Positions 1-5,109 of a DNA stretch of 5,109 nucleotides are shown piece by piece; the stretch's first letter is position 1, and each line of letters starts with the position of its first letter. The position numbers and the translations under genes are program-made. This DNA comes from Chloroflexi bacterium UBA4733 (lineage in GTDB: Bacteria > Chloroflexota > UBA4733). A model generated the notes under the pieces. That model was given only the letters and a program-made list of their open reading frames with translations. It searched no databases and had not been told where the DNA came from. Location: positions 1 to 5,109 of the forward strand of contig DHIZ01000154.1 in NCBI GenBank assembly GCA_002404055.1, in the 5' to 3' direction.

Positions 1-295
1 TATGATTTCTGAAAGCCCTCTCAGGCCACGTCGAGTCCTCAGCCGCAGGCAGCAACATCCCCACGCTGGCGCTCACCTGCATCTCCCACCTCGCGCGCTG
101 GGTGAAAATACTCTAACCAAGAAGTCGCTCCTCTATTTTTCGGCGCGTCTGCTGCGCCTTGACCGTGACCTGCGTCAAGCGGGAGCAGTTGGGGATCCGG
201 CATATTCAGCGACACCCCCTCCTAATGATCCTTCGCTCGAAGGATAGGCCCTCCTGTTAGGGGAGAGTCAAGGGGATACGGGCCAGCGCCGCCGT
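1..295. other. Left-edge stretch with no supported gene
   Basis: No frame here gives a recognisable protein. An 81-codon open frame from position 2 (+) is rich in Arg, Pro and His, as expected from chance reading of GC-rich DNA. Visible structure is limited to short inverted repeats: CTTGAC/GTCAAG (158-163 and 174-179), a perfect 8-bp hairpin at 228-245, and a short CCCT/AGGG hairpin at 249-262. The last two lie just past the stop of the BNR remnant on the minus strand. Confidence 0.5.
228..262 (-). terminator. Two adjacent hairpins after the BNR remnant, possible terminator
   Basis: ATCCTTCG (228-235) and CGAAGGAT (238-245) form a perfect 8-bp stem with a 2-nt centre. A 4-bp CCCT/AGGG hairpin follows at 249-262. 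They lie 34-68 nt downstream of the minus-strand BNR stop at 296-298. Neither strand shows a T-tract after the hairpin, so a canonical Rho-independent terminator is not supported. The role is inferred from position only. Confidence 0.25.
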
Positions 296-772
296 TCAGG
301 GTCCGAAGGCGACCGACTGGACGCGCAGGTCCGGGTTGCCTGGCAGCGCCGAGCGCCAGCGCCACTCACCCGCCGCCGAGCGAAGTAGGCGGCCACCGGA
401 GCAGATGGCCCAGACGCTGCCGTCGGGCGCGGCGACAAATAACTCAACCATGTCCGGCATGGGCGCCGCGATCCCGTTGCTTGCCGGCTGCCAGGTGTCG
501 CCGCCATCGGCCGAGACGACGATGCGCCCGCCCCGCCCCACGTCCGGCGATGGGCCGGCCAGGACGAGGTCGGGCCGCGCAGGCGGGATCAGCACTGCCC
601 GCGTATAGTCGGTCTCCAGCTTCTGGCAGCTCTTGCCTCCGTCCCGCGAGCGGGCGACACCGCCCAACCGCTGCTCCTCCCCGTCGTCCCGGGCCAGCGG
701 CTCGGCTACTATACTCCTGCGGCGCGCGGGGCCGCCGCGACACGAAGGGATGGGCGAGCGATGGAGCACCAC
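296..772 (-). pseudogene. 3' remnant of a BNR/WD40-like repeat (photosystem II stability factor-like) gene
   Basis: The open frame of 158 codons from a GTG at 772 ends at a TGA at 296-298. Family-like sequence begins only around residue 37 (about position 664). It shows two BNR/Asp-box style motifs, ARSRDGGKSC (residues 40-49) and SADGGDTW, followed by PMPDMVE and a last blade ending LRVQSVAFGP. These are typical of the C-terminal half of beta-propeller proteins of the sialidase/VPS10/Ycf48-like group, common in Chloroflexi, which usually exceed 300 residues. The first 36 residues look unrelated, there is no ribosome binding site before the GTG, and the first Asp-box has Cys where Trp is usual. 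I read this as a 5'-truncated decayed gene. The missing blades would make a stable propeller unlikely. Confidence 0.55.
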
Positions 773-823
773 AATCTCGGGCGCAGCTATACACGTTCCG
801 TCAAGGCTTCACTCGGGCCACGT

Positions 824-830
824 GAGGAGG
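824..830 (+). promoter_or_regulatory. Ribosome binding site that sets the start at 839
   Basis: GAGGAGG lies 8 nt before the ATG at 839. This decides against the in-frame ATG at 761, which has no such site. A TATACT box at 710-715 could be a -10 element but has no matching -35, so no promoter is called. Confidence 0.75.
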
Positions 831-838
831 TCCGTGAG

Positions 839-1309
839 ATGGACGAGGGTCTGGTCCCCTACTCGACTTTCTTCCCTGAGCAGGCGGCGCGCGAGACGCG
901 ATCGTTCACGACGCGCGGCGACCCAGTGCTGGCAGACGATGAGTACGGTCTGCTCGAGTCGTATTGCGCGGACCCCGCCTGCGCCTGCCGCCGGGTGATG
1001 CTCAACGTCCTCTCGAGGCGGCAGCGCGAGGTGCTGGCAGCGATCAGCTTCGGTTTCGACCGTAACAGCGAGTTTGCGGGGCCCTTCCTGGACCCGTTGA
1101 ACCGCCAGAGCGCTTCAGCCGGCAACTTGCTGGTAGCGGTCAGGGAGGTGCTGGCTGATCCGGTCTACGTCGCTCGTCTGGAGGCCCACTACTACCAGGT
1201 CAAGGGGGCGGCGGCTGATCCGAAGCATCCCGGCCACCGCCGCTCTCACCACGCCGAGCGGGCGCAGCGCGGACGGTCGGTGCGCCAGCCCGGAAGGCGC
1301 GCTAGATGA
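839..1309 (+). CDS. Small cysteine-cluster protein of unknown function
   Basis: The 156-residue protein starts at ATG 839, chosen because GAGGAGG sits 8 nt upstream. No enzyme motif is recognised. A Cys cluster C43-x4-C48-x-C50 lies in the context ESYCADPACACRRVMLNV. A conserved-looking middle follows (FGFD at 71-74, AGPFLDPLNRQS at 80-91), then an amphipathic stretch through residues 97-122, and an Arg/His-rich tail from about residue 129 (HPGHRRSHH). The short CxxxxCxC could bind metal or iron, possibly with His from the tail. From memory, similar N-terminal segments occur in some SEC-C-motif proteins, but the SEC-C signature itself is absent here. The tail composition would fit a truncated or shifted C-terminus. 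No signal peptide or membrane segment is seen. It is convergent with the ATPase gene, 126 bp away. Confidence 0.7.
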   Translation: MDEGLVPYSTFFPEQAARETRSFTTRGDPVLADDEYGLLESYCADPACACRRVMLNVLSRRQREVLAAISFGFDRNSEFAGPFLDPLNRQSASAGNLLVAVREVLADPVYVARLEAHYYQVKGAAADPKHPGHRRSHHAERAQRGRSVRQPGRRAR

Positions 1310-1435
1310 AGGGAGCGTACCCCGCGGCAACAAGCCAGCGTTCGGCCCAGGAGATAGTACCTGCGCGAATACCAGTGCAAGGACGGCGCAGTGCCGACCC
1401 AGGCGCAGGTCAGTCCATTTCCGGGCCGCCCCGAT
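1310..1435. other. Convergent intergenic gap with a possible gene scrap
   Basis: The gap separates the stops of two convergent genes. No strong terminator hairpin with a T-tract is visible. One plus frame after a TAG (1355-1357) reads YLREYQCKDGAVPTQAQV at 1358-1411. This has the flavour of a LexA-like N-terminal helix-turn-helix but is too short to call. Confidence 0.3.
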
Positions 1436-2863
1436 TCACAGGCGGGCGACAAACTCGTCTGGACCGACCAGGATCGTGCCCTCCGTCCGCGCCCGTTCGA
1501 CCAATTGCGGCGTGAAGCCGGCGGCGGAGAAGATAATGAAGCGGGGCGTCGCCCGCCAGCGGCCATGCGGCGTAGAGGCAAGCTTGTGCTGGAGCGCCGA
1601 GAGCACGTTGACGTCGCTGGGCTGGCGCGACCACTTGCATTCCCCGACGAGATAGCTGCCGTCCGCCAGCTTGCCGACAAGGTCGATCTCGACGTCGCTC
1701 GGTCGGCTCCACCACCGGCCAAGATCGAGGAGCATCGGCAAACCGTAGCCTCGCCCAAAGCGGCGCAGGTGCTGCGCGCAGATCCCCTCAAAGACATACC
1801 GGCCCAGGTAGTCGCTGAGGTAGGGCTCGACCAACTCGGTCCAGGCATCGCCAGGCGGTACGCTCTGCAAGGCGCTGCGCCCGCGGAAGACGAATCGGTA
1901 CCAGAACTTGAGAAAGTTGTCGTCGAGGCGGTAGATCCCCCGACGGTCCGGCTCCTCGAAGGGTTTCTCGTGGGCAACCCAGCCGAGCTGGCGCAGGCGA
2001 TCCAGGGCGCCAGCGACAACATGCCTTTCCAGATGGGCCTGATTGGCGATCTCCCCCCACTCCGTAGCGCCGACGGCGATGGCCTCGAGCACGGCGTTGT
2101 AGTTGGCGTACTCGCGGATGTCCCGCTCCTGGCGGATGAGGATCTCTCCCTCGCGATGGAATGTCCCCTGGGGGTCAAGTACCAAGCGGGCGATATTCTC
2201 ACCGAGGGAGAGTGCGGGATCGACCGCCGCGAGATAGCGACCACTTCCACCGAGGAGGCCATACAGCAGCAGAAGGTCGCGCGGGCCGTAGGCTTGGTTC
2301 GGCGGCGAACCGACCAGGAAGAAGCGAGACGCGTCATAGTAGTCTAACGGCCGGTAGGGGTGGACCCAGTCGAAGCGGCCGTGGAGGGGCCGCCCGTAGG
2401 CGTCGAGCGCCCCGAGCAGCCCGATCTCCGAGCCACAGAGAATGAGCTTGATTTGGGAGGATCGCGCGTCCTGGTCCCAGACGGCCTGGAGGATCGACGG
2501 TAGCGACGGGTCCACGCCAACGAGGTAGCTGAACTCATCAAACACGACGAGAAGCCGCTCCTGGGTGGCCAACTCGCAGAGGAGTCGAAGGGCGACCCGC
2601 TAGCTCGGGTAGTTCTCGCGGATGATATCGGTACGCCCGGGGAAGGACTGGCGGATCTGGGCCAGGAGCTCCTCCAGATTCTCGAGCGAGGAGGACTCCG
2701 CAGCGAGGAAGTAGATGCCGCGGCGCCCCTCCAGCGCGTGCTGGAGAAAGTATGTCTTCCCGACGCGTCGCCGCCCGTAGATTAGGGCGAGGGCGGGCCC
2801 CGGCCGGTTCCACAGTTCCGCCAGGCGCTGCTGCGCGTTCTCCCGGTTCACCAAGCCGACCAC
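1436..2863 (-). pseudogene. DUF234-family (archaeal-type) ATPase gene with one in-frame amber codon
   Basis: The frame runs from GTG (2863-2861) to TGA (1438-1436), 475 codon positions, a usual length for the family. Only one stop interrupts it: TAG at 2602-2600 (codon 88), with the frame intact on both sides. Domains in order: P-loop ATPase (ATPase_2 type) with Walker A GRRRVGKT at 30-37, Walker B LLVVFDEF at 104-111 (D109, E110), and a sensor-like LILCGSE at 140-146; a winged-helix-like region around 250-310; and a DUF234 C-terminal domain with a PD-(D/E)xK-like core, EIDLV at 392-396 (D394) and ECK at 408-410 (E408, K410). The role of such ATPases is not well established; nuclease or mobile-element links have been proposed. 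The amber falls between the Walker motifs, so an untreated product would be an 87-residue stub. It may be a recent nonsense mutation, a sequencing error or suppression. Start support: AAGGAGG 5 nt upstream. Confidence 0.8.
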
Positions 2864-2868
2864 GTTCG

Positions 2869-2875
2869 CCTCCTT
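2869..2875 (-). promoter_or_regulatory. Ribosome binding site of the ATPase gene
   Basis: On the minus strand AAGGAGG is followed by 5 nt (CGAAC) and the GTG start at 2863. It is a near-perfect Shine-Dalgarno and supports the GTG over any internal start. Confidence 0.8.
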
Positions 2876-2901
2876 TTTGCAGGGTATGAACTACTAGTGT
2901 G

Positions 2902-2916
2902 TAGACTATTAGTCTA
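2902..2916 (-). promoter_or_regulatory. Palindromic operator candidate overlapping the -10 box
   Basis: TAGACT-ATT-AGTCTA is a perfect 6-bp inverted repeat around a 3-nt centre. Its first half on the minus strand is the -10 hexamer of the ATPase promoter. A bound dimeric repressor would occlude RNA polymerase. This is inferred from position and symmetry; no regulator gene is in the window. A further palindrome, ACTAGT (2893-2898), lies next to it. Confidence 0.45.
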
Positions 2917-2939
2917 AACCGTGGGTCATCCCGCGTCAA
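2911..2939 (-). promoter_or_regulatory. Sigma-70-type promoter for the ATPase gene
   Basis: On the minus strand, TTGACG (2939-2934) and TAGACT (2916-2911) are separated by exactly 17 nt. The match is 5/6 at -35 and 4/6 at -10, including the key first T, second A and last T. The predicted start of transcription near 2904 leaves a leader of roughly 40 nt holding the Shine-Dalgarno. Confidence 0.6.
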
Positions 2940-3094
2940 GGAATCGTCGTCCGGTACGATGGCAGAATGTAGGCGGAACCGACGTCGCAAAGGAGCAACG
3001 CAGGTCTGCAATCGAGCGCGCCTTCGGACGGACCAACGGAAACTGAGGTTCGCCGGCAGATGGCGTTCTCCGAGCACGTTATCCAGGAACATCA
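2940..3094. other. No gene seen between the ATPase promoter and the ankyrin remnant
   Basis: Open frames on both strands here are Arg-rich and resemble nothing known. The stretch is probably intergenic or decayed. Confidence 0.4.
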
Positions 3095-3247
3095 TTACGG
3101 TCCGTTGGCCGATCTGGCGCCCTGGTCGCGCAGCCAGGTCACGAGCGCCTCCCGCGCCGTGTCAGCGGCGCCGGCCATGTCCAGAGGGGTATTTTTGGCG
3201 TAGTCGGGGATCCAGTTCAGGTCGGCGTTGCCATTCTGTAGAATCCC
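3095..3247 (-). pseudogene. C-terminal remnant of an ankyrin-repeat gene
   Basis: A minus-strand frame from just after a TAA (3250-3248) to a TAA at 3097-3095 encodes 50 residues. It includes GILQNGNADLNW, then KNTPLDMA, then ALVTWLRDQGARSANGP. The order (I)LxxGADxN, TPLDMA, and a last helix ending LRxxGA is the pattern of a terminal ankyrin repeat and cap. There is no start codon with a ribosome binding site and the frame is closed upstream, so the 5' part is lost. An extra Asn in NGNADLN departs from the usual NGADLN. Ankyrin repeats mediate protein contacts; this fragment alone would not fold as a repeat domain. It lies back to back with a sulfatase tail that is also missing its 5' part. 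Confidence 0.6.
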
Positions 3248-3346
3248 TTACGTTTGACCTACCCGAGCACGGTCCTTGTTGCGCTGGATAAAGCAAGGTG
3301 GCGCTGGATCAGAGGATGCAGAGGCCAGTGCCGCCAGCGACGATGC

Positions 3347-3793
3347 TGGCCGGGGCGCATACCGGCAGCGAGTACCGACCCCAGCTTCCTCCGCTCGGTG
3401 GATGTGGGGCCAACGCTGACCGGCGCCTGCGGCCTGGCGATGGGGCCGCAAGTGCAGGGGCACCACCTGGCGGTAGCGTTGCTTGGGGGTACGAACGCCA
3501 TCGCAAACAGCGCTTACATGGAGGGCTATTTCCGCCCGGCCTCAGCCGATTCACCTAACGAGCAAAACATACCCGAGCACTGGCGAGCCTTGCGCACGCC
3601 GGAGCACCTGGTTGTCACAGATTTGCACGGTACGGTCCATCTGCTGTTCGATTTGCGTACCGACCCGCTCGCTGTCCACAACCTGGCGGGGCTGCCGGAC
3701 GCGCAGGATACACAGGGAACGATGCTGGCTCGCCTTTGCGCCGAGGCTCGCGCGCTGGGCGATCCGGCGCCACTGAGCAAGACGCCAGCATAG
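3347..3793 (+). pseudogene. 3' remnant of a sulfatase (arylsulfatase/alkaline phosphatase superfamily) gene
   Basis: The open frame extends from an ATG at 3254 to TAG at 3791-3793. Family-like sequence starts with WPGRIPA (3347 onward) and continues through SVDVGPTLTGACGL, then VQGHHLA, WRALRTPEHLVV, LLFDLRTDPLAVHNLAG and a final amphipathic helix. This is the standard order of the last third of type I sulfatases (in full-length members: RWPGRIPAG, SVDVxPTLLxLxG, VQGxSL, WRxxRT, LYDLxxDPxExxNLAG). About 148 residues remain of a usual 450-500. The N-terminal formylglycine motif (C/S-x-P-x-R) and most metal ligands are absent, so it cannot be active. The residues before WPGR, rich in Arg and Cys, do not resemble the family. 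The ATG at 3254 has no convincing ribosome binding site. Confidence 0.7.
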
Positions 3794-3836
3794 CGCGGCT
3801 TGACGGCGCATTGAGCGCAAGGGCACCGTCAGCCGA

Positions 3837-3872
3837 CCCTACGATGAATGACTTTGTTGGCGAAGAGCGACC
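3837..3872 (+). repeat. Left terminal inverted repeat of the palindromic element
   Basis: It begins CCCTACGATGAATG and ends GGCGAAGAGCGACC. It pairs with 4016-4051 at 33 of 36 positions; the mismatches are at 3841, 3852 and 3854. Similarity stops just outside 3837. Confidence 0.85.
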
Positions 3873-3890
3873 AGGGGATGAATCCCCCGG
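3871..3890 (+). other. Hairpin 1, left copy
   Basis: CCAGGGGA-TGAA-TCCCCCGG forms an 8-bp stem with one A.C mismatch (3873/3888) and a TGAA loop. It aligns base for base with the right copy at 4017-3998, but the stem differs at several pairs. Confidence 0.75.
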
Positions 3891-3897
3891 CTAGACG

Positions 3898-3923
3898 GGA
3901 CGAAGCCCCTGACGGGGCTGTCC
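3898..3923 (+). other. Bulged hairpin 2, left copy
   Basis: The outer stem GGAC (3898-3901) pairs with GTCC (3920-3923). A two-base GA bulge (3902-3903) follows on the 5' side. The inner stem AGCCCC/GGGGCT (3904-3909 and 3914-3919) closes a TGAC loop. Confidence 0.7.
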
Positions 3924-3962
3924 GTGGCAACCGTTGGATCGCGCGTGCAGAGTGGTCGGGGT

Positions 3963-3988
3963 GGACAGCCTGCCGTAGCAGGCTTCGT
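3963..3988 (-). other. Bulged hairpin 2, right copy
   Basis: On the minus strand the outer stem GGAC/GTCC and the GA bulge (3986-3985) are unchanged. The inner stem is AGCCTGC/GCAGGCT around a TACG loop, one pair longer than the left copy, with two pairs swapped compensatorily. Confidence 0.7.
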
Positions 3989-3997
3989 CCTGCCTAG

Positions 3998-4017
3998 CCG
4001 GACGCTTCAGCGTCCGG
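3998..4017 (-). other. Hairpin 1, right copy
   Basis: On the minus strand CCGGACGC-TGAA-GCGTCCGG is a perfect 8-bp stem with the same TGAA loop as the left copy. Three stem pairs are compensatory replacements relative to the left, and the left A.C mismatch is here a G-C pair. Confidence 0.8.
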
Positions 4018-4051
4018 TCGCTCTTCGCCAACAGATTCATTCATCGCAGGG
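4016..4051 (-). repeat. Right terminal inverted repeat of the palindromic element
   Basis: It is the inverted partner of 3837-3872. It contains the stop codon (4039-4037) and the last four sense codons, Pro-Cys-Asp-Glu, of the phosphoribosyltransferase gene. Confidence 0.85.
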
Positions 4052-4714
4052 CGGATTTCGTTCCAGGCGCTCCCGGTCGGCACGCCGGAGCAGTTCCCTT
4101 ACCTCGTCATCGCTCGTCGGCGAAAAGTCCTCGTACCAATAACCGACTGACGAGAACAACTCGGGCGTGAGGAGGCAGACTGCCTCGTCCACGTCGGCAC
4201 GGAGCCGTTCCCAGGATGGTGCGGCGGCGACGGGCACACCAGCGACGATCCGGGCCGGCTGCCACTGCCGCAAGGCCAGCGCCGCAGCACGCATGGTCGA
4301 TCCCGTCGCTATTCCGTCGTCCACCAGAATGACGGTCCGTCCCTGCACCACGAGCGGCGACCGTCCTTCCCGATAAGCGCGTTCTCGGCGATCCAGTTCC
4401 TCTTGTTCCTGCTGCGCCACACGGTCGATCACGGTAGCCGGGATAAATAAGTCGCCCACAACGTCCTCGTTCAGGACCCGCACGCCGCCGCTGGCAATGG
4501 CGCCCATGGCCAGTTCCGTATGCCCCGGCAGGCCCAATTTGCGCACCAGGAAGATATCCAGCGCCACTCCCAGCACATGGGCCACGGCGTAGCCAACGGG
4601 GACACCGCCGCGCGGCAACGCCAGCACCAGCACGTCGGGCCGTCCGGCGTAGGCCCCCAGGTGCTCGGCCAGCGCGGCCCCAGCCTCCAATCGGTCACGA
4701 AACATGCGGTCCAC
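4037..4714 (-). CDS. Phosphoribosyltransferase-domain protein (COG1926-like)
   Basis: The 225-residue protein has a type I PRTase fold. The PRPP-binding loop is VILVDDGIATGST at 128-140, with two acidic residues (D132, D133) and a following G/T-rich loop. LALPRGGVPVG at 31-41 and VRKLGLPGHTELAMGAIA at 57-74 are the other conserved blocks of this predicted phosphoribosyltransferase group. The substrate base is unknown for the group, so no reaction can be named beyond probable use of PRPP. It is cytosolic, with no signal or membrane segment. GTG 4714 was chosen because AGGAGG sits 5 nt upstream. The internal ATG at 4705 (MFRDR, where relatives often start) is 14 nt from that site and remains an alternative. 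The family core ends near residue 212; the last 13 residues are an extension whose final PCDE and stop lie inside the inverted repeat. It stands alone, not in an operon. Confidence 0.9.
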   Translation of the reverse strand: MDRMFRDRLEAGAALAEHLGAYAGRPDVLVLALPRGGVPVGYAVAHVLGVALDIFLVRKLGLPGHTELAMGAIASGGVRVLNEDVVGDLFIPATVIDRVAQQEQEELDRRERAYREGRSPLVVQGRTVILVDDGIATGSTMRAAALALRQWQPARIVAGVPVAAAPSWERLRADVDEAVCLLTPELFSSVGYWYEDFSPTSDDEVRELLRRADRERLERNPPCDE

Positions 4715-4719
4715 CGTAC

Positions 4720-4725
4720 CCTCCT
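4720..4725 (-). promoter_or_regulatory. Ribosome binding site of the phosphoribosyltransferase gene
   Basis: AGGAGG on the minus strand precedes the GTG at 4714 by 5 nt. It favours the GTG start over the ATG at 4705. Confidence 0.7.
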
Positions 4726-4745
4726 ACCATGGCGGTGTAGTTATC

Positions 4746-4774
4746 GTCACCGGCAATCGCCAAGTTACCGGCAA
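4746..4774 (-). repeat. Tandem 11-bp repeats before the phosphoribosyltransferase gene
   Basis: On the minus strand TTGCCGGTAAC (4774-4764) and TTGCCGGTGAC (4756-4746) match at 10 of 11 bases with an 18-bp offset. They end 31 nt before the GTG. They could be a tandem regulator site or chance; no clear -35/-10 pair was found beside them. Confidence 0.35.
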
Positions 4775-5109
4775 AGATGGTAAGCGTAAGGCCGGCAGCG
4801 CGTTGAAGACGGCGGTTAAGCTCAAATGTCGGCTGCTCATCAGGAACCTACGTGACACCTACCTTGGTAGGATAAAGTCCATGTCGCCGCTGCGCCAGAG
4901 CAGGTCACTCCGCTCGTCGGCAGTCCGCCGCGCTTCTGGCGGTTACGGACGAGGATACGGGAGTAGCGTCTGCACGTTGTCGGGGCGAGCAAGGAGAATC
5001 TGATGATCACACGGCGGTGGCGATTGACACCTACTCGCCGTTGCAGAACAGCGCCTCGCCGACTGGAGAAGGCGTGGACGTGGCAGAAGTGCGCCACAGA
5101 TTATCGCGC
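4775..5109. other. Right-edge stretch with no supported gene
   Basis: Open frames on both strands are short or Arg-rich and match no family I know. A perfect 14-bp palindrome, CCTACC-TT-GGTAGG, lies at 4858-4871. AAGGAG at 4991-4996 precedes an ATG at 5003 whose frame stays open to the edge (35 codons), but the product is highly basic and unconvincing. Another plus frame open from 4876 gives more protein-like sequence near the end (AVAIDTYSPLQNS) yet has no ATG or GTG start. A gene beginning at or beyond the edge cannot be excluded. Confidence 0.35.

Follow-up and report, generated by a model that had tools for sequence, protein, structure and literature searches.

The element described here occupies positions 3837 to 4051 of a 5,109-nucleotide stretch of DNA from Chloroflexi bacterium UBA4733 (assembly GCA_002404055.1, contig DHIZ01000154.1, positions 1 to 5,109), hereafter called the window. 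It is composed of two inverted copies of a two-hairpin module, and is probably a non-autonomous miniature comparable to a REPIN (repetitive extragenic palindrome (REP) doublet forming a hairpin) or to a miniature inverted-repeat transposable element (MITE), which is, or formerly was, mobilised by a Y1 transposase of subclass 1.2. Computed directly in this study were the family to which it belongs, its anatomy, the covariation of its stems, the association of such modules with transposase genes, and the fit of the window element to a model built from transposase flanks. Somewhat more cautiously, we favour the broader view that subclass-1.2 Y1 proteins would be the enzymes of cross-phylum mobile elements with inverted double-hairpin ends, which spread double-ended miniatures with a four-way fold in single-stranded DNA and a tendency to land in palindromes, the window, from an uncultured Chloroflexota-like bacterium, holding one of these copies.

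The element and its family

An inverted-repeat search of the window identified two inverted arms (3837-3907 and 3981-4051) that are 83% complementary along 71 nt, and alignment of the outer end repeats showed 3 differences in 36 positions. Inside lie the two modules (3869-3924 on the forward and 3964-4019 on the reverse strand), which together span 151 nt; each contains a first hairpin (H1) of 8 bp with a TGAA loop, a CTAG-bearing linker (GGCTAG), and a bulged second hairpin (H2) with a GGAC/GTCC outer stem, a GA bulge and an inner stem. An earlier note, made from the sequence alone, had described the arms as inverted modules with end repeats matching at 33/36, and both the coordinates and this anatomy hold, as do the two-sided stem differences between the arms (three in H1, two in H2, and one H2 pair gained). 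That H1 keeps its 8 bp and its TGAA loop is correct for the loop, but the left stem is interrupted at its third pair by an A.C mismatch and forms only 7 of 8 pairs; the H2 loops are unlike (TGAC on the left, TACG on the right), and CTAG, common to both arms, varies in the family. Folded as single-stranded DNA, the whole element reaches -77.2 kcal/mol, compared with a shuffle mean of -39.6 (standard deviation 3.7; z -10.1; 0/200 as low), and the single arms fold modestly better than their own shuffles (z -1.5 and -2.8, module direction). The predicted fold is four-way, with a long outer stem, two H1 side hairpins and a central stem.

When 301 Chloroflexota genomes were searched at the DNA level, the strongest matches were found in genome G034 (best E 2.6e-12), and G174, G041 and G021 matched more weakly (G numbers denote Chloroflexota genomes and L numbers fetched loci); 14 of the 301 matched at E <= 0.01, mostly over short lengths and with few candidates scored per genome. 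A separate count of copies gave 23 matches in G034. Three covariance models were used: R1, built from the two window arms; R2, from 24 rows including window arm 2 and two G034 rows; and R3, built only from alignment A7, whose 28 rows come from around Y1 genes at 16 loci and include zero window or G034 rows. At E <= 0.1, R1 matches all four chosen genomes (36 times in G034, 114 in G174, 8 in G041 and 5 in G021, some of these being lower bounds), and R3 yields 42 module matches across 26 of 27 fetched G034 stretches, many of them as inverted pairs of about 130 nt; 12 of 17 measured G034 pairs are 128-134 nt long, counted from the start of one module to the end of the other. In G174, loci L286 (10960-12618) and L173 carry arrays in which the modules alternate in orientation and recur approximately every 115 nt.

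The H1 stems of the family fall into few discrete alleles, among them CCAGGGGA, CCGGACGC, CCAGGAGA (with a TAAA loop), CCGGACCG and CCGGGGGA, and a single G034 element (L261) carries both window types, CCAGGGGA and CCGGACGC, each with TGAA. The linker is not constant: GGCTAA, GGCTGA, GGCTCG and others replace the GGCTAG of the window, and the tetranucleotide by H1, which is CTAG on both strands of the window, is TTAG, TCAG, CTAG, GTAG, ATAG or CGAG in relatives. Linkers are identical between the arms of 10/13 G034 elements versus 16/156 between-element pairs (0/10,000 permutations), and H1 is identical between arms in only 1/13. Linkers are concerted across an element and H1 is not, the pattern expected of linkers that pair with one another and of an H1 that forms its own local hairpin.

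A strict pattern matched 0 stretches in one genome for each of approximately 85,000 species; the plasmid and the phage collections each contained a single weak match, and nine relatives searched at the DNA level with the whole element showed weak matches only. Three DNA patterns picked 49, 10 and 22 stretches from viral contigs, which were rejected, as the two-hairpin module was seen by eye in none, and they look like chance matches, many apparently coding.

Modules at the ends of Y1 transposase genes

In G174 a Y1 gene (907781-908125) sits amid paired-hairpin repeats. Its protein matches the NCBIfam IS200/IS605 transposase model and not the RAYT (REP-associated tyrosine transposase) model, and contains WQ and Y...Q..HH, which the available part of PMC6006769 gives, together with DH[IV]H, as key motifs of subclass 1.2, a subclass with Cyanobacteria among its hosts. 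The same part lists this subclass as 'no' for REP, generally without terminal IS200 structures, and not sharing the properties of insertion sequences (IS). Y...Q..HH is present at 32 testable loci and WQ in 33 of 34 extracted proteins, and in a FastTree phylogeny the flanked proteins stand apart from the IS200 and RAYT examples; judged by these motifs and by our own tree, most flanked genes appear to encode subclass-1.2 Y1 enzymes. Of four Y1 genes initially matched in G041, two were discarded as ordinary IS200-type.

The order of G174 includes 82 genomes, 21 with a Y1 match at E <= 1e-8. At its 18 Y1 loci (E <= 1e-17), four of which (L336, L337, L345, L347) had supplied R2 rows, R2 found modules at 12 at E <= 1e-4 and at 15 at E <= 0.05; at ten (L337, L338, L341, L342, L343, L345, L346, L347, L348, L356) the modules are inverted on both sides of the gene, as they are at the weaker Y1 relative L351. 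The ends are clear at L347 and at L337, the latter having both hairpins at both ends, at a distance of 20 nt from the gene. Among 24 loci without Y1, ten of which, including L185, were chosen by likeness to the element, R2 matched one (L185). At the genome level, R2 matches occur in 14/15 genomes of this order with Y1 at E <= 1e-17 (five of the 15 having supplied R2 rows) versus 33/67 others. The L337 protein as query gave matches in 24 of 49 further genomes, and R2 matched at 14 of the 30 Y1 loci fetched from them, six of these having a module on either side of the gene, inverted and of the same sense: L385, L392, L406 and L407 in Cyanobacteria, and L390 and L405 in one Armatimonadetes genome.

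This association was also recovered in a model-free manner, by taking the best inverted repeat that links the 350 nt before each gene with the 350 nt after it and comparing it with 100 shuffles. The test was positive (0/100 shuffles) at 23/32 testable Y...Q..HH loci versus 1/76 phosphoribosyltransferase genes (Fisher p 3e-15, without correction for relatedness). The earlier note had proposed to look for a Y1/RAYT, TnpB or DDE gene sharing the repeat, and modules indeed flank Y...Q..HH Y1 genes in Chloroflexota, Cyanobacteria and an Armatimonadetes genome; the resemblance it saw to REP/REPIN units moved by RAYT enzymes extends to the inverted-pair layout, but there is no GTAG/GTGG, and the flanked enzymes are IS200-like Y1 proteins with Y...Q..HH, not RAYTs. 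A second Y...Q..HH gene of G174 (L355, L226; 3138623-3139018) lies among other repeats with GCGAT-TGAA-ATCGC hairpins that R2 does not match.

The window element is tied to these genes by R3. Scanned over the window with filters off, the two arms score highest, at 45.3 and 39.1 bits, followed by a third match of 12.4 bits in the same element, and the best match elsewhere reaches 10.2 bits. Control DNA totalling 720 kb (41 of 80 loci) yielded 2 R3 matches at E <= 0.1, which form one inverted pair (L104, 12600-12723). This is a dispersed pair in Nostoc spongiaeforme, the same genome as the R3-row locus L392, and one of its H1 hairpins plus the start of the linker is identical to an end of the L392 Y1 gene.

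These results suggest the following mechanism. Each end is a two-hairpin module (H1 with a TGAA or TAAA loop, a GGCTA-type linker and a bulged H2), the ends being inverted over a short spacer; the HUH/Y1 enzyme would recognise the hairpins of the ends in single strands that probably become accessible on the lagging-strand template, excise or copy the unit and then reinsert it, sometimes, perhaps in the window too, into a pre-existing palindrome, whereby an outer inverted repeat would be left. We infer in this way that the enzyme acts on the modules through a single-stranded step, that the window copy has been mobile, and that its target was palindromic.

Stem covariation and the weighing of alternatives

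In an alignment whose columns were fixed by the conserved linker and not by pairing (2 of its 38 rows are chance matches, retained in the counts), 154/176 H1 cells are paired versus 89/176 and 75/154 when slid by one. Alignment A5 (MAFFT, 53 rows) was made after dropping 5 of 34 G034 modules as degenerate or shifted (L264 -, L267 -, L268 -, L276 + and L305 -) and 23 of 39 G174 modules for redundancy; its H1 cells are 92.8% paired versus at most 60.5% slid, and 68 cells are changed on both sides versus 21.4 (standard deviation 3.1) in shuffles, 0/500 as high. Since MAFFT aligned H2 wrongly when G034 and G174 copies were combined, only A6 and A7 were used to count H2 covariation. A6 (24 rows) is 94.0% paired over H1 and H2 versus at most 49.3% slid, with five of five measures above 500 shuffles, and A7, which contains only flanks of transposase genes, is 90.0% paired versus at most 48.3% slid. 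Across the phyla of A7, H2 is 99.0% paired, with 5/7 pairs changed on both sides and zero one-sided changes; H1 is 77.0% paired, its lowest pair being mostly unpaired. The earlier note had made its claim of selection on secondary structure depend on further copies with covarying stems; copies were found and their stems covary, so a conserved, covarying fold stands for the family, but the difference between the two arms of the window need not be compensation in place, because both window H1 types occur elsewhere, together in L261.

The outer repeat has a more restricted distribution. Flanks outside the modules pair at 0/200 shuffles in 5 of 23 inverted pairs (the window, L262, L303, L309 and L311), and at L262 (G034:C484, approximately 1559-1782 of the contig) the repeat has the motif of the window and lies 22-28 nt from the modules; the left copy there may fall within coding sequence. 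Among 400 Chloroflexota genomes the core of the repeat occurs exactly in 1 place, beside the L262 element, and at up to one mismatch in 15 places in 12 genomes. Up to three mismatches yield 11 matches in G034, two of which flank the L262 element, versus 4 for the reversed control. The idea that the outer repeat is a separate repeat family was rejected. Insertion into an existing palindrome is a fair guess for the source of the outer repeat, because REP dimers within longer palindromes are reported in the accessible part of PMC3733652; alternatively, it may be an extra, rarer part of the element.

Several observations weigh against mobilisation by subclass-1.2 Y1 enzymes. R2 detected nothing at L344, L355 and L357, nor at twelve other Y1 loci, at least three of which (L350, L352, L353) encode Y...Q..HH, and at L391, L400, L401 and L403 (Acidobacteria and Verrucomicrobia-type) the Y1 gene has weak R2 matches on its two sides that are of the opposite sense. 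The model-free test started from 55 loci, of which 21 without an accepted open reading frame, 1 without flank sequence and 1 without the motif were excluded, and 9 of the remaining 32 fail it, including L345, L347 and L390, whose ends R2 detects. In G174 the ends of the Y1 gene at 907781 show no close sequence likeness to the dispersed modules, NCBIfam labels the flanked proteins simply as IS200/IS605 transposases, and many R3 rows were chosen via R2 with its window arm and two G034 rows among 24. No Y...Q..HH Y1 gene was found in G034 or its class (3 genomes); the sole Y1 match in G034 is a RAYT-type gene (92.9 bits versus an NCBIfam REP_Tyr_transpos cut-off of 80). Finally, no clean empty site was obtained in the one attempt, within the genus of G174, in which a 10-kb stretch was compared with six same-genus genomes: synteny was found, and the intergenic DNA had diverged too far for a judgement.

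Matched stem changes could also arise without selection, through template-switch (quasipalindrome) correction of hairpins that pair imperfectly and the reuse of existing stem alleles. The few discrete H1 types common to many copies and the concerted linkers of single elements agree with this, and in A5 neither the pairs with two-sided change (4 versus 4.2) nor the pair types (10 versus 10.5) exceed the shuffles (427 and 417 of 500). We nevertheless regard this as unlikely, though it retains some weight: H2 stays paired across phyla through two-sided changes, and cells with such changes lie above all 500 shuffles in A5, A6 and A7, while the slid controls exclude inheritance partly, not fully. 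Quite unlikely is a classical REPIN of a host RAYT (class 2 TnpA-REP) with a convergent likeness to subclass 1.2, for which the tail-to-tail inverted pair of hairpins and the RAYT-type gene of G034 could be cited; however, the window element has no GTAG/GTGG tag and matches the flank model of Y...Q..HH genes, and the RAYT-type loci L223 (G034) and L224 (G021) have no module within 1.5 kb and no flank inverted repeat.

Covariation alone cannot separate DNA from RNA, and a position between convergent gene ends (3793 on the forward and 4037 on the reverse strand) would suit a terminator, an mRNA stabiliser or a processing signal whose mobility is incidental. Such a role as RNA is decidedly improbable, as copies form both ends of transposase units and are dispersed over many loci, and an Rfam scan of the window gave 4 weak matches, none at gathering score and none overlapping the element. 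A MITE of a DDE transposase would account for the closely matching 36-bp terminal repeats, but is hardly credible: the outer repeat is missing from most copies and its core is nearly unique, inspection by eye revealed no target site duplication at 3837/4051 or at the GACC/GGTC borders, and no DDE gene with these ends turned up, although no search was aimed at DDE genes. The element is filed as Y1-family and REPIN/MITE-like, and not as a RAYT REPIN, because the tag and the associated enzyme differ.

Setting of the element and comparison with known systems

Table 1. Positions of the parts of the element and of the adjoining gene in the window.
Feature	Position	Strand	Evidence
Left outer inverted-repeat arm (with GACC 3869-3872, the 36-nt end repeat)	3837..3868	+	flank inverted repeat 0/200 shuffles
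Left two-hairpin module	3869..3924	+	R3 39.1 bits at 3869-3922; R2 53.1 bits
Left H1, CCAGGGGA-TGAA-TCCCCCGG, one A.C mismatch	3871..3890	+	sequence, folding, allele comparison
Left linker CTAGACG	3891..3897	+	sequence, alignment
Left H2: GGAC, GA bulge, AGCCCC-TGAC-GGGGCT, GTCC	3898..3923	+	sequence, folding, R3
Central spacer, module to module	3924..3962	.	sequence
Right H2: GGAC, GA bulge, AGCCTGC-TACG-GCAGGCT, GTCC	3963..3990	-	sequence, folding, R3
Right linker CTAGGCA	3991..3997	-	sequence, alignment
Right H1, CCGGACGC-TGAA-GCGTCCGG	3998..4017	-	sequence, folding, allele comparison
Right two-hairpin module	3964..4019	-	R3 45.3 bits at 3964-4019; R2 60.2 bits (the arm itself is 1 of 24 R2 rows)
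Right outer inverted-repeat arm	4020..4051	-	inverted-repeat search, alignment, flank shuffles
Phosphoribosyltransferase gene; last codons and stop (PCDE-stop, 4037-4051) inside the right outer arm	4037..4714	-	

The two genes converging on the element are a sulfatase-like C-terminal fragment (SGSH_C; 3254-3793, forward strand), which adjoins it, and the phosphoribosyltransferase gene. The PCDE-stop tail of the latter is also present in a 98% relative (P0002), and an 88% relative (P0003) ends in LLERSN, before the element-encoded tail, and is perhaps an empty site. Further upstream, on the reverse strand, a DUF234 ATPase gene is in two pieces (1436-2572 and 2600-2863) with a stop between them, and relatives such as P0122 have it in one piece of 475 aa; the split may reflect decay or a sequencing error. 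The nearest named relatives of the ATPase are Chloroflexota, and the phosphoribosyltransferase, through which the Chloroflexota genomes were reached, is spread too widely to indicate a host lineage. Short near-palindromes (ACTAGT, TAGACTA/TAGTCTA) were seen by eye at approximately 2885-2925, just upstream of the ATPase gene.

In the literature searched, which covers few subscription journals, we found no description of this repeat or of a partner repeat for subclass 1.2. If the proposed role is true, an orphan branch of HUH/Y1 enzymes gains a DNA partner, in phyla that are open to biochemical tests of it, and a second REPIN-like system, separately built, stands alongside that of RAYT and GTAG-REP. 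The origin of covarying repeats would also be made concrete, as discrete stem alleles reassorted between ends, with a linker that is concerted across the element.

The ends of IS200/IS605 elements are not known to be inverted copies of each other, whereas those of the units described here are. In other respects IS200/IS605 elements and their MITE-like derivatives, as far as the available part of PMC6006769 describes them, are similar, sharing a HUH/Y1 enzyme, subterminal hairpins and the NCBIfam name of the flanked proteins. With the subclass-1.2 Y1 proteins of the same source the likeness consists of DH[IV]H, WQ and Y...Q..HH in most flanked genes and of Cyanobacteria as hosts, and the difference of inverted two-hairpin ends, dispersed like pairs, and an occurrence in Chloroflexota too. 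The REP/REPIN-RAYT systems, in the accessible parts of PMC3733652 and PMC6006769, are likewise high-copy intergenic palindromes in inverted pairs, with homo- and heterodimers of differing stems, and the copy number is also high in G034 and G174; REPs inside longer palindromes are reported there from A. variabilis, T. roseum and H. neapolitanus. In contrast, the present family has two hairpins per unit, no GTAG/GTGG tag and an enzyme of another subclass. TIRtrons, with their TIRYT enzymes, resemble it in that a Y1-type gene is bordered by inverted repeats which are also found dispersed as dimers, some of these repeats being partly self-complementary, but the TIRYTs were mapped mostly to subclass 2.1, and the parts of both papers available to us describe no two-hairpin module with a TGAA loop (PMC3733652, PMC6006769).
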